This document shows positions 45,666-49,479 of a DNA stretch of 49,718 nt, piece after piece; positions within the stretch are counted from its first letter, which is position 1, and each line of letters begins with the position of its first letter. The stretch covers positions 1 to 49,718 of the forward strand of contig CADAVI010000018.1 in NCBI GenBank assembly GCA_902791295.1, read 5' to 3'. Below the pieces are notes generated by a model that saw nothing but the letters and a program-made list of their open reading frames with translations, did not search any database and was not told the DNA's origin. Both the position numbers and the translations under genes were made by a program. Origin of the DNA: an uncultured Bacteroidales bacterium (GTDB taxonomy: Bacteria > Bacteroidota > Bacteroidia > Bacteroidales > Bacteroidaceae).

Positions 45666-46370
45666 ATGGAACAGAAACATCGTATTATGCTTTGTGAGGA
45701 CGAGGAGAGTCTCGGCGTTTTGGTGCGTGAATATCTGCAGGCCAAGGGCTACGATGCAGATCTTTATCTGGACGGAGAGGCCGGTTACAGGGCTTTCACC
45801 ACAAGCAGCTTCGATTTGTGTCTGCTGGACGTCATGATGCCCCGCATGGACGGTTTCACGCTGGCTAAGGAAATCCGCATGATTAATCCCGATGTGCCCA
45901 TCATTTTCCTCACGGCCAAAAATCTGAAGGAGGATATTCTTGAAGGCTTCAAACTCGGTGCAGACGACTATCTGACCAAGCCTTTCTCCATGGATGAACT
46001 GGTATATCGCATCGAAGCCATTCTGCGCCGTGCCGGCGGCAAGCAAAACAAGCCCCAGAACATTTACGAACTGGGTTCCTACACCTTCGACACGCAGCGC
46101 CAAACGCTCACACGCGGAGAAACGCAGACGCGCCTGACCACAAAGGAGAGCGAGTTGCTCACTCTGTTGTGCATGCACGTGGGCGACATCCTCCAAAGAG
46201 AGGTTGCCCTGAAATCCATCTGGGTTGAAGACAACTACTTCAACGCCCGTTCAATGGATGTTTATATCACGAAACTCCGCAAACTGCTGAAGGACGACGA
46301 CCGCATCCAAATCAACAACGTGCACGGTAAAGGCTATCGCCTTATTCTGCCGCCTTCTTGCTCAAAATGA
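45666..46370 (+). CDS. rprY: Response regulator RprY (OmpR/PhoB family)
   Basis: The 234-residue regulator has a receiver domain with acidic pocket CEDEES, phospho-acceptor in LCLLDVMMPRMDGFTL, and the Thr/Lys pair in IIFLTAKNLK and DDYLTKPFS. The winged-helix DNA-binding domain (about 135-232) includes LTTKESELLTLLCMHVGDIL and VYITKLRKLLKDD. RprY is known in Bacteroides/Porphyromonas as a regulator linked to stress and energy metabolism. Its last 29 nt overlap a small membrane-protein gene on the opposite strand. Confidence 0.93.
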   Translation: MEQKHRIMLCEDEESLGVLVREYLQAKGYDADLYLDGEAGYRAFTTSSFDLCLLDVMMPRMDGFTLAKEIRMINPDVPIIFLTAKNLKEDILEGFKLGADDYLTKPFSMDELVYRIEAILRRAGGKQNKPQNIYELGSYTFDTQRQTLTRGETQTRLTTKESELLTLLCMHVGDILQREVALKSIWVEDNYFNARSMDVYITKLRKLLKDDDRIQINNVHGKGYRLILPPSCSK

Positions 46371-46509
46371 TGTGGGCGATGAGGCCGCCGATGATGCACA
46401 CGAGTGCAAAGCCCTGTACCCAGTTGTAGTCAACCCAGTCCAGGAAATAACTCAGAACCAAAATGAGTGTGCCGAAAACAATGGCGCAAACGCCGGCGTA
46501 TTTAGTCAT
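46342..46509 (-). CDS. Small two-helix membrane protein
   Basis: The 55-residue protein starts at ATG 46509 (MTKYAGVCAIVFGTLILVLS). Two hydrophobic helices (about 5-22 and 33-49, FALVCIIGGLIAHIIL) are joined by a short WVDYNWVQ loop, with a charged SKKAAE end. The function is unknown; I infer conservation from its clean membrane-protein content, not from a search. The 3' end overlaps the end of rprY by 29 nt, so antisense effects on rprY are possible. Confidence 0.7.
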   Translation of the reverse strand: MTKYAGVCAIVFGTLILVLSYFLDWVDYNWVQGFALVCIIGGLIAHIILSKKAAE

Positions 46510-46653
46510 AGCAATATAGATTTTGATGTTTATTTCTTTAATTTCGGATACAAAATAAACAAAAAAGTATGATTTGAGCAACTTTTCGTCTCAGATTTTA
46601 GCTCTTTTGGCAAATTATTTCCGATAAATGACGTGCGGTTGCCGGAATTTTCG

Positions 46654-46661
46654 TACCTTTG
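46654..46661 (+). promoter_or_regulatory. -7 box TACCTTTG of the rpsF-rpsR-rplI operon
   Basis: The box ends 50 nt before the rpsF ATG at 46712. The AT-rich leader shows no clear structured S6/S18-binding motif. Confidence 0.6.
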
Positions 46662-46711
46662 CAGCGCATTTTGCAAATTTATTACATTATTAACCCATTT
46701 TTAAGCGTATT

Positions 46712-47047
46712 ATGAACCAATACGAAACCGTTTTCATTTTAACTCCCGTTTTGTCTGATGATCAGATGAAGGAAGCGGTAGAAAAGTTCAAGGGCGTTTT
46801 GACCAAGCTCGGTGCTGAGATTATCGGCGAAGAGAATTGGGGCCTGAAGAAGCTTGCCTATCCCATCCAGAAGAAGAGCACGGGCTTCTACCAGTTTATC
46901 GAGTTTAAGGCTGAGCCCGAGGCTATCAAGTCTCTGGAGATTGCTTACCGTCGCGATGAGAAGGTGCTTCGCTACCTCACCGTCAAGATGGAGAAGTATG
47001 CCGTTGAGTATGCAGAAAAGAGAAGAAACAACAAAAAGGAGGCTTAA
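46712..47047 (+). CDS. rpsF: 30S ribosomal protein S6
   Basis: The 111-residue protein matches bS6 throughout: [60 protein letters not shown], with the usual Lys/Arg-rich end. bS6 pairs with bS18 on the platform of the small subunit. There is no Shine-Dalgarno sequence before its ATG, unlike the two genes that follow. Confidence 0.97.
47036..47042 (+). promoter_or_regulatory. Strong Shine-Dalgarno sequence AAGGAGG before rpsR
   Basis: AAGGAGG is at 47036-47042, 8 nt before ATG 47051 and within the end of rpsF. Such sequences are absent before nearly all other genes in the window, as expected for Bacteroidetes, so this one is unusual. Confidence 0.8.
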
Positions 47048-47050
47048 GAC

Positions 47051-47320
47051 ATGGCACAGCAAACATCTGAAATCCGTTATCTGAACGCTCCCGCTATTGA
47101 CGTCAAGAAGAAGAAGTATTGCCGTTTTAAGAAGAGTGGTATCAAGTATATTGACTACAAGGATCCTGAATTCCTGAAGAAGTTCCTAAACGAGCAGGGT
47201 AAGATTCTTCCCCGCCGCATCACCGGTACTTCTTTGAAGTTCCAACGCCGTGTGGCTCAGGCTGTAAAGCGTGCGCGCCACTTGGCTCTGTTGCCCTTCG
47301 TAACTGATTTGATGAAGTAA
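47051..47320 (+). CDS. rpsR: 30S ribosomal protein S18
   Basis: The 89-residue protein matches bS18: [59 protein letters not shown]. In Bacteroidetes ribosomes, bS18 with bS6 and bS21 forms the pocket that sequesters the anti-Shine-Dalgarno end of 16S rRNA. It lies 3 nt after rpsF and has its own strong Shine-Dalgarno sequence. Confidence 0.97.
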
Positions 47321-47326
47321 ATTAAA

Positions 47327-47333
47327 AAGGAGG
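47327..47333 (+). promoter_or_regulatory. Strong Shine-Dalgarno sequence AAGGAGG before rplI
   Basis: AAGGAGG is at 47327-47333, 7 nt before ATG 47341. It is the second such site in this operon. Confidence 0.8.
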
Positions 47334-47340
47334 ACGAATC

Positions 47341-47852
47341 ATGGAAATTATTCTGAAAGAAGATATCATCGGTCTTGGTTTCAAGAACGACATCGTGAAT
47401 GTAAAGGCCGGCTACGGTCGTTCGGTAAGGGTGTCATCGCCAGCGAGAGTGCCAAGAAGCAGCTGGCTGAGGATCTCAAGCAAAAGGCTGTCAAACTGGC
47501 TAAGATCAAGGCTGAGGCAGAAGCTCTTTGTGAGAAGCTCAACGCCGTTGCCCTGACCATTTCCACCAAGGTGAGCGCCACCGGTGTGATTTATGGCAGC
47601 GTGAACAGCCTGCACATTGCCGATGAGTTGCAGAAGCTCGGCTTCAACATCGATCGCAAGACCATTATTGTGAAGGATGTGAAGACCGTTGGCAACTATG
47701 TGGCTCAGGTGAAGTTGCACAAGGAAGTGACTGCTCAGGTGCCTTTCACTGTGATTGCAGAGGGTGGTGTTCAGCCCGCTCCCGCCGCAGAGGAGGCAGC
47801 TCCCGCTCCCGAGGCAGAAGCCGCAACTTCTGCAGAGGCCGCCGCAGAATAA
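47341..47852 (+). pseudogene. rplI: 50S ribosomal protein L9, frameshifted by an internal deletion
   Basis: The first 27 codons read as intact bL9 (MEIILKEDIIGLGFKNDIVN, VKAGYGR). After CGT at 47419-47421, only TC remains before GGTAAGGGTGTCATC (GKGVI) in another frame. Family members have six residues (NYLIPT or similar) between GYGR and GK, so about 16 bases seem to be missing. From 47424 the frame is open to TAA at 47850-47852 and encodes the rest of L9 (KLNAVALTISTKVSATGVIY, IADELQKLGFNIDRKTIIVK) plus an Ala/Glu/Pro-rich tail. As it stands, translation from ATG 47341 runs in the wrong frame and stops near 47556. It may be a true mutation, since L9 is dispensable in some bacteria, or an assembly error. 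Confidence 0.88.
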
Positions 47853-47883
47853 GTTTCGTCTCAGACGAAAAAATAATATGAGG

Positions 47884-47918
47884 AGTCCCGCGTGCAAATG
47901 CTGCATGCGGGACTTTTG
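47884..47918 (+). terminator. Terminator after the rpsF-rpsR-rplI operon
   Basis: AGTCCCGCGTGCA (47884-47896) pairs with TGCATGCGGGACT (47902-47914) with one G-T wobble, followed by a short T-run (47914-47917). Confidence 0.7.
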
Positions 47919-47943
47919 GTTAAAAATTAAATCTTGTAGTATT

Positions 47944-49479
47944 ATGAACAATCCTGCATTGGAAAAAGGTTATGAAGGCGGAGGTTTCCGCAGAATGACG
48001 GGTGCGGTGATGGGGCCTCTGTGTGCCCTCATGCTTTGGCTGATGCCTATTGACGGGCTTTCGGAGCAGGCACACCATCTTTTGGCCGTGATGTCGCTGG
48101 TTGCCATCTGGTGGATCACGGAGCCGGTGCCCATTCCTGTCACTTCGCTCCTTGGACCGACATTGTGTGTCCTTCTTGGCATAGCATCAGCCGAGGATGC
48201 ATACAAGCAGTTTGCCAATCCCATGATTTTCCTCTTCATGGGTGGCTTCCTTATAGCCAAGGCCATGATGGTCAACGGGTTGGACAAGCGTATCGTCTAT
48301 GGCATCATGTCGATGAAGTGGGTCGGCGATTCGCCGAGGCGCATCTTCCTGGCCATCGGTTTGGCCTGCATTCTCTGTTCCGGTTGGGTCAGCAATACGG
48401 CTACGGCTGCGATGATGTTTCCCATCGCTCTCGGTTTGCTGGAAGCCATTCGTGAGATGATGGCGGCCAACGGCAAAATCATCGACCTCTCCAACTACAA
48501 ATATGCAACAGGTCTTATGCTGATGACGGCTTACGCCTGCAGCATCGGCGGTGTGATGACGCCCATCGGCACGCCCCCCAACCTCATCATGCTCGGTTTT
48601 CTGGAGCAGTTGGCCCCTCAGGCCCCCAAAGTTTCGTTCATTCAGTGGATGGTGTGGGGTATTGTGTCCATGCTTTGCTATTTTGTGGTGGCATCTGTTG
48701 TATTGTGGCGTCTGTTTCCTTCCGATGTCAGCAACATTGAGGGTGCCCGTGAATTTATTCGCCGTTCGGTTAATTCTTTGGGCAAGTGGACTCTTGCCCA
48801 AAAGAATACGATGCTGGCATTCTCCGTTGCTTTCATCCTGTGGGTGGCTCCCGGGGTGTTGAACATCTTCTTTGATGACAAGTCGCTTGCGATGCAGTTC
48901 TATCAGAGCCACTTTCCCGAAGCCGTAGCGGCTATGACGGGCGGTCTGCTGCTGTTCTTCATGCCCGTCAACTTGAAGAAAGGGCAGATGACGCTGTCGT
49001 GGAGAGACGGAATGGAAGGTATAGAGTGGGGCACACTGCTGCTCTTCGGCGGCGGATTGGCTATGGGCGGCATGATGTACACCACCGGGCTTTCGGCGTG
49101 GGTCGGTGCCGGCATCAGCGATATGCTGGGTGGTCATCCCTCAGAGTGGCTTTTTGTCAGCGTATTCTGTGTGACGGCATTGGTTTTGTCGGAACTCACC
49201 TCGCATACGGCGTCAACCAATCTCCTTGCGCCCATTGCCATCGGTACGGCGATATCGTTGGGCTTCAGTCCCATCCCAGTCGCCGTCGGCATTGCGCTCT
49301 CGTCGTCGCTCGGTTTCATGATGCCGGTGTCCACTCCGCCCAATGCCATTGTCTATTCTTCTGGCTATGTGCCCATTACGAAGATGATAAAATCAGGCTT
49401 CATCATTGACTTGATTGGCATTTTACTGGTTACTATTCCCGTAGTCATGCTGCTGGTGAAGTATGTGACAGGTGTATAA
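47944..49479 (+). CDS. DASS/SLC13-family sodium-coupled anion transporter
   Basis: The 511-residue protein starts at ATG 47944 (MNNPALEKGYEGGGFRRMTG); the open frame upstream lies in rplI. It has about eleven hydrophobic segments and the paired SNT-type motifs that bind sodium and the substrate carboxylate: WVSNTATAAMMFPIALG and SELTSHTASTNLLAPIAIG. In the second the Asn of SNT is replaced by His (SHT), followed by TNLL. GGVMTPIGTPPNLIML and LGFMMPVSTPPNAIVYSSG are the two hairpin tips. Substrates in this family are C4-dicarboxylates, citrate or sulfate. No obvious partner gene is adjacent. Confidence 0.88.
   Translation: MNNPALEKGYEGGGFRRMTGAVMGPLCALMLWLMPIDGLSEQAHHLLAVMSLVAIWWITEPVPIPVTSLLGPTLCVLLGIASAEDAYKQFANPMIFLFMGGFLIAKAMMVNGLDKRIVYGIMSMKWVGDSPRRIFLAIGLACILCSGWVSNTATAAMMFPIALGLLEAIREMMAANGKIIDLSNYKYATGLMLMTAYACSIGGVMTPIGTPPNLIMLGFLEQLAPQAPKVSFIQWMVWGIVSMLCYFVVASVVLWRLFPSDVSNIEGAREFIRRSVNSLGKWTLAQKNTMLAFSVAFILWVAPGVLNIFFDDKSLAMQFYQSHFPEAVAAMTGGLLLFFMPVNLKKGQMTLSWRDGMEGIEWGTLLLFGGGLAMGGMMYTTGLSAWVGAGISDMLGGHPSEWLFVSVFCVTALVLSELTSHTASTNLLAPIAIGTAISLGFSPIPVAVGIALSSSLGFMMPVSTPPNAIVYSSGYVPITKMIKSGFIIDLIGILLVTIPVVMLLVKYVTGV

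Follow-up and report, generated by a model that had tools for sequence, protein, structure and literature searches.

The rpsF-rpsR-rplI operon described here lies on the forward strand of a 49,718-nucleotide stretch of DNA, the whole of which was analysed and is called the window below. It belongs to a Bacteroidales genome (G000) of 2.26 Mb in 145 contigs, with a completeness of 85%, whose closest named records are metagenome assemblies of Bacteroidales, Bacteroidaceae and Prevotellaceae, several of them from cattle or buffalo gut. The three genes are accompanied by two Shine-Dalgarno (SD) heptamers, AAGGAGG, in the following arrangement:

46712..47047, + strand: rpsF, encoding bS6 (Pfam PF01250, E 2.3e-31), whose final codons encode KKEA and are followed by the stop
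47036..47042, + strand: AAGGAGG, the strong SD of rpsR, within the 3' end of rpsF, spacer 8 nt
47051..47320, + strand: rpsR, encoding bS18 (Pfam PF01084, E 1.5e-26), whose ATG lies 3 nt past the rpsF stop
47327..47333, + strand: AAGGAGG, the strong SD of rplI, intergenic, past the rpsR stop, spacer 7 nt
47341..47852, + strand: rplI, encoding bL9, frame-broken, as judged from partial L9 profile matches and alignments

Upstream of the operon, the element TACCTTTGC stands before rpsF (46654-46662) and is also found before rpsU (locus L062); it resembles the Bacteroidetes -7 promoter element; no clear -33 element was seen before rpsF. At the other end, alignment to the relatives L003, L375 and L007 reveals a 16-nt gap near 47420 in rplI: the N-terminal part is L9-like, and the downstream part carries on in a different frame. 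The PF01281 match, the sole L9 N-terminal match of the genome, covers positions 1-27 only, and the NCBIfam L9 match, positions 1-28, falls under its cut-off. Intact rplI genes are present in relatives; the break may reflect either an assembly error or a true loss of L9.

Duplex energies with the 16S tail were computed with duplexfold of ViennaRNA, not with the free_scan program of the authors who described the class (Jha 2021 / PMC9976891), and an SD was called strong at -7 kcal/mol or below. Both sites of the operon reach -12.2 kcal/mol, each pairing over 8 contiguous nt, and they lie, as the original prediction had it, 7-8 nt ahead of the two starts (spacers of 8 nt to the ATG at 47051 and of 7 nt to that at 47341). 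The further claim that no other gene of the window has a comparable site holds for the first start codons of its 41 putative genes, defined as longest open frames with putative starts: only rpsR and rplI pass the threshold, and two more genes reach it only when later ATGs are allowed. The heptamer itself is present in the window in a near-chance number (7 observed on both strands, 5.6 expected); what is unusual is its position.

Genome-wide, AAGGAGG followed at 4-10 nt by ATG occurs 52 times (50 distinct sites); a control with the pattern written backwards gives 23. Inspection of 49 of these sites by open frames and by eye (the site on C143 being left out) identified about 10 plausible gene starts, most other ATGs lying, on this by-eye reading, inside other reading frames. 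The plausible starts are those of rpsR, rplI, tsf, nqrD and rnfC, named by family matches, of four other genes and of a putatively queH-like gene with no NCBIfam match. Given this number, the genome uses strong SDs sparingly, and the avoidance originally proposed stands as rarity, not as outright avoidance. AAGGAGG ahead of ordinary genes, whose frequent occurrence would have spoken against a special role at rpsR, is rare (about 10 plausible starts among the 50 sites), though not absent. Two such genes of this genome, nqrD (L054) and rnfC (L055), belong to the homologous Nqr and Rnf ion-pumping complexes, one gene of each being preceded by the motif.

Conservation was evaluated at three taxonomic levels and among named records. 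For the genus, 50 genomes were matched (the present one included), yielding 44 loci, 43 of which could be read, the start being off the contig in L006. A strong rpsR SD is found in all 43 (30/30 and 13/13); among the first 30 loci AGGAGG is invariably present, in 21 cases as the full AAGGAGG. In these same 30 loci, the only ones searched for rplI, the gene was found 27 times, with a strong SD in 26. For Bacteroidales outside the genus, 98 of the 144 non-own matches were taken, following the listing order of their S18 score instead of a random draw (G213 was skipped, G352 entered the first set ahead of its turn, and G312, having no rpsU, was omitted from the second). Strong SDs precede rpsR in 63 of the 98, rplI in 71 of the 93 where it was found, and rpsU in 23 of the 96 whose start was read; the 35 genomes with no strong rpsR SD count against a feedback role. 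Mock windows placed further upstream of rpsR were strong in 0/30 loci of the genus and 3/49 of the first order sample. Among 80 named loci, where rpsR was not found in 3 and rplI in 13, strong SDs occur at 75/77 rpsR and 62/67 rplI genes, Bacteroides fragilis and Phocaeicola being among them. A wider phylum sample, in which 69 of 143 non-own matches were obtained as loci and 66 genomes were read (one appearing twice, as L084 and L162), has a strong rpsR SD in only 17/66 genomes, with mock windows strong in 4/28 and 3/39 rows, so that the trait is uneven outside Bacteroidales. The expected enrichment ahead of rpsR and rplI in relatives is evident in the genus and the order, that ahead of rpsR being patchy in the wider phylum sample.

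In the genus, the rpsR SD falls within the final rpsF codons in 30/30 loci. The motif could thus be a by-product of the C-terminal peptide of S6, since the codons for KKEA encode it in the window, and the rplI motif a product of chance, the heptamer being about as numerous in the window as chance predicts. Across the order, however, the tail residues change while motif and spacing persist, sometimes outside rpsF. An SD core is present in 34 of the first 49 Bacteroidales loci, always 7-10 nt from the rpsR ATG, while the distance from the rpsF stop to that ATG ranges from 2 to 26 nt; the residues of the S6 tail vary among KEA, KED, KEN, MEE, VEE and EEK, and in 3 of the 34 loci the SD overlaps the rpsF stop (L118) or comes after it (L127, L146). 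The rpsR SD tracks the start of rpsR, not the tail of S6. Codon usage points the same way, GAG being chosen for Glu in the register of the SD much more often than nearby: in 30/30 genus loci, as opposed to 271/490 Glu codons in the rest of rpsF and rpsR, and for 30 of the 32 Glu codons in the 34 order loci whose rpsF stop lies 0-4 nt ahead of the ATG, as opposed to 178/568 elsewhere. Simple binomials on these counts overstate the bias, the genomes being related, but its direction is plain. As for chance, the rplI SD of the window lies outside the codons of both rpsR and rplI, and its counterpart is strong in about three quarters of the Bacteroidales read. S6 tail variation, GAG bias and rplI SD conservation led us to reject the combination of coding by-product and chance, which we regard as very improbable. 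On comparative grounds, both AAGGAGG motifs are real, selected SD elements of internal genes of the operon.

A possible way in which such elements are read has been outlined in Flavobacterium johnsoniae, where, according to PMC9976891, bS21, bS18 and bS6 hold on to the 16S tail, Tyr54 of bS21 is a pocket residue, and ribosomes devoid of bS21 favour strong-SD messages. The premise of the original prediction, namely that these three proteins hide the anti-SD, is already in print (PMC9976891 and PMC8710568). Of 295 Bacteroidales genomes analysed here, 32 matched the 16S-end pattern, and every one of these has the anti-SD ACCTCCTTT intact, the 16S end of the window genome being unmatched. Tyr54 is present in 94 of the 97 genomes read; the three exceptions are a truncated G236, G308 with divergence near its end, and G275, where Phe takes its place. 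Covariation of SD and anti-SD in nature was also sought within the order, but every match to an open 16S-end pattern was canonical and offered no variation to compare, with 263 of the 295 genomes giving no match.

We favour a reading in which the rpsR and rplI SDs would be recognized by ribosomes whose 16S tail lies outside the bS21/bS18/bS6 pocket, either immature 30S particles or subunits with too little bS21 or bS18. A build-up of such pocket-deficient particles would raise initiation at rpsR and rplI and, as bS18 is itself a pocket protein, the rpsR SD would close a feedback loop. We hold the balance to be about even on this proposal, whose basis is the position of the sites, their conservation, selection at the nucleotide level and an anti-SD that is intact wherever it could be read in relatives; pairing of these SDs in the cell, its attribution to pocket-deficient ribosomes and a regulatory effect are what we infer. 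Against it, reporter assays in Prevotella bryantii point to little effect of SDs, although PINA_1201 deprived of its own retained 0.45 +/- 0.37 of its level (PMC3155529).

In the window genome rpsU, another pocket-protein gene, has no SD (-0.4 kcal/mol). Among 96 Bacteroidales, strong SDs are found at both rpsR and rpsU in 4 genomes, at rpsR only in 59, at rpsU only in 19 and at neither in 14. The hypothesis of mutual exclusion was fixed after a first set of 48 genomes (1, 33, 7 and 7, in the same order) and then tried on a second one, consisting of 48 usable genomes out of the next 50 (3, 26, 12 and 7). One-sided Fisher tests, which treat genomes as independent, gave 3e-4, 1.8e-4 and, for the pooled data, 6e-8; these values are not relied on, and few switches are left once the tree is considered. 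In a tree built on S6, S18 and S21, omitting the S6 tail, 17 of its 18 rpsU-only genomes fall within one group of 24, G319 being separate; the rpsR SD requires a minimum of 10 changes, that of rpsU 9 and that of rplI 11, with only 9 of the 93 inner branches starred, and an independent-pair test of the alternation rests on just 1-2 supported pairs. The alternation is read as a clade-level difference, probably involving about two moves to rpsU; a statistical demonstration of exclusion is not claimed. In the rpsU-only clade (L216-L293, L343-L360), the SD of rpsU often reads AGAAAGAGAG or AGAAAGAGGT, which match the 16S tail if a single base is skipped; this is an unusual form, perhaps a bulged extended SD.

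The rplI SD behaves differently. No exclusion between rplI and rpsU was found in the pooled genomes (both 19, rplI only 51, rpsU only 3, neither 18), nor is there a significant association of rpsR and rplI SDs across Bacteroidales (both 50, rpsR only 12, rplI only 21, neither 10), and 15 of the 18 genomes having an SD at rpsU rather than rpsR keep that of rplI. A regulatory link between S18 and L9, as originally envisaged, does not emerge from these distributions. That rpsR and rpsU, two pocket-protein genes, seldom both have an SD, with no such exclusion for rplI, we count in favour of reading by pocket-deficient ribosomes; the 14 genomes with neither SD, and the concentration of the alternation in one clade, are counted against it.

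Strong SDs are not a mark of pocket proteins alone, being conserved in the genus at rplE, rplF and rpmD. Since no L14 match was found in the window genome assembly, 12 same-genus str/S10/spc/alpha clusters were used as a stand-in: rplE and rplF have a strong SD in 12/12, rpmD in 11/12 and rplW in 4/11. Gene names in these clusters are presumed, largely from synteny, L5, L6, L30, L23 and L24 having been checked by NCBIfam. The whole S10/spc cluster seems to be missing from the G000 assembly; of 18 same-genus assemblies examined, 5 likewise have no L14 match. The rpsR and rplI genes are members of a small group of ribosomal-protein genes which keep strong SDs in Bacteroidales, where most genes have none. 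Start-region RNA structure was rejected as the reason for these SDs, as the predicted folding energies of ribosomal genes with and without an SD overlap.

The composition of this set lends itself to a different explanation, according to which they merely add strength or coupling, as ordinary elements, at a few operon-internal genes (rpsR, rplI, rplE, rplF, rpmD, sometimes rplW, and perhaps tsf, nqrD and rnfC). They would help ribosomes that have just terminated on the preceding gene to reinitiate at the correct AUG, and S18 or S21 would not be sensed. All six ribosomal-protein genes with an SD are indeed internal cistrons by gene order, non-pocket proteins are among their products, the rpsR ATG closely follows the rpsF stop, its SD sitting within the end of rpsF, and the rpsR and rplI SDs vary with no significant association. 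Most internal cistrons, on the other hand, do without an SD: 29 of the 33 str/S10/spc/alpha genes have a strong one in at most one genome each (between 4 and 12 genomes having been read for each gene). The presence of an SD also does not follow predicted start-region structure, Bacteroidetes do not seem to employ SDs for reinitiation (the conclusion of PMC6728339), and coupling gives no reason why rpsR and rpsU should so seldom both have an SD. Taken by itself, this explanation falls somewhat short of an even chance in our estimate, and a non-regulatory role of this kind is nearly as likely as feedback through pocket-deficient ribosomes. Specific feedback by S18 is further weakened by the SDs of rplE, rplF and rpmD, none of which encodes a pocket protein, and of rplI, about equally strong and conserved in the genus, as well as by the pairing of the window rpsR over 8 nt, not the 9-13 of rpsU.

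The core observation and the idea of feedback are already known. Strong SDs in Bacteroidia, Bacteroidales included, at rpsR, rplI, rplE, rplF and other genes were described by Jha et al. 2021, as restated in PMC9976891 and PMC8710568; the former also places strong SDs ahead of rpsR in Bacteroidales, with rplI and others as further SD genes, and suggests that bS21 and/or bS18 may regulate their own translation. With -12.2 kcal/mol and an 8 nt spacer, the window rpsR falls within this class, frequent across the order, and shows no essential difference from its published description: genes, order, kind of motif and the suggestion of self-control by bS18 or bS21 are the same. What is added here is nucleotide-level selection within rpsF codons, the survey of SDs in the genus and the alternation of rpsR and rpsU within the order. 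A literature search at abstract level, with Jha et al. 2021 and supplements outside its scope, found no report on that alternation or on codon bias at the rpsF end; no priority is claimed.

Compared with the autoregulation of F. johnsoniae rpsU described in PMC9976891, the present case shares an SD on a pocket-protein gene, an intact anti-SD in the relatives read and a conserved bS21 Tyr54. It differs in that the SD is on rpsR, the window rpsU having none, and pairs over 8 nt, whereas an extended pairing of 9-13 bp is said to set rpsU apart from other SD genes; nor is rpsR a single outstanding SD gene, AAGGAGG being found also at rplI, tsf, nqrD and rnfC, and SDs at rplE, rplF and rpmD in relatives. 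The S6:S18 complex is reported to bind the rpsF leader in E. coli and B. subtilis (PMC4647458), a comparable autocontrol of the same operon by S6/S18. The element described here, in contrast, is an SD inside the operon, and an Rfam scan of 46300-48000 (E <= 1) found no rpsF-leader RNA family, its sole match being one DnaX under its gathering score; the leader was rejected as an explanation.

A broader, frankly speculative and on balance unlikely scheme would have a single SD-based sensor of pocket occupancy moved between genes, residing at rpsR in most lineages and at rpsU in one clade and one separate lineage. With the other SD genes (rplI, rplE, rplF, rpmD) it would form a small regulon translated preferentially by pocket-deficient immature 30S particles, linking the supply of 50S proteins to the state of 30S assembly.

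The difference between rpsR and rpsU within the order supplies natural pairs of lineages in which feedback may be tested, and the findings caution against regarding the SD as a dead signal in Bacteroidales. If SD pairing works in the cell, a small group of messages in these bacteria is translated by ribosomes in a different state, which would be a clear example of ribosome specialisation among common inhabitants of the gut.
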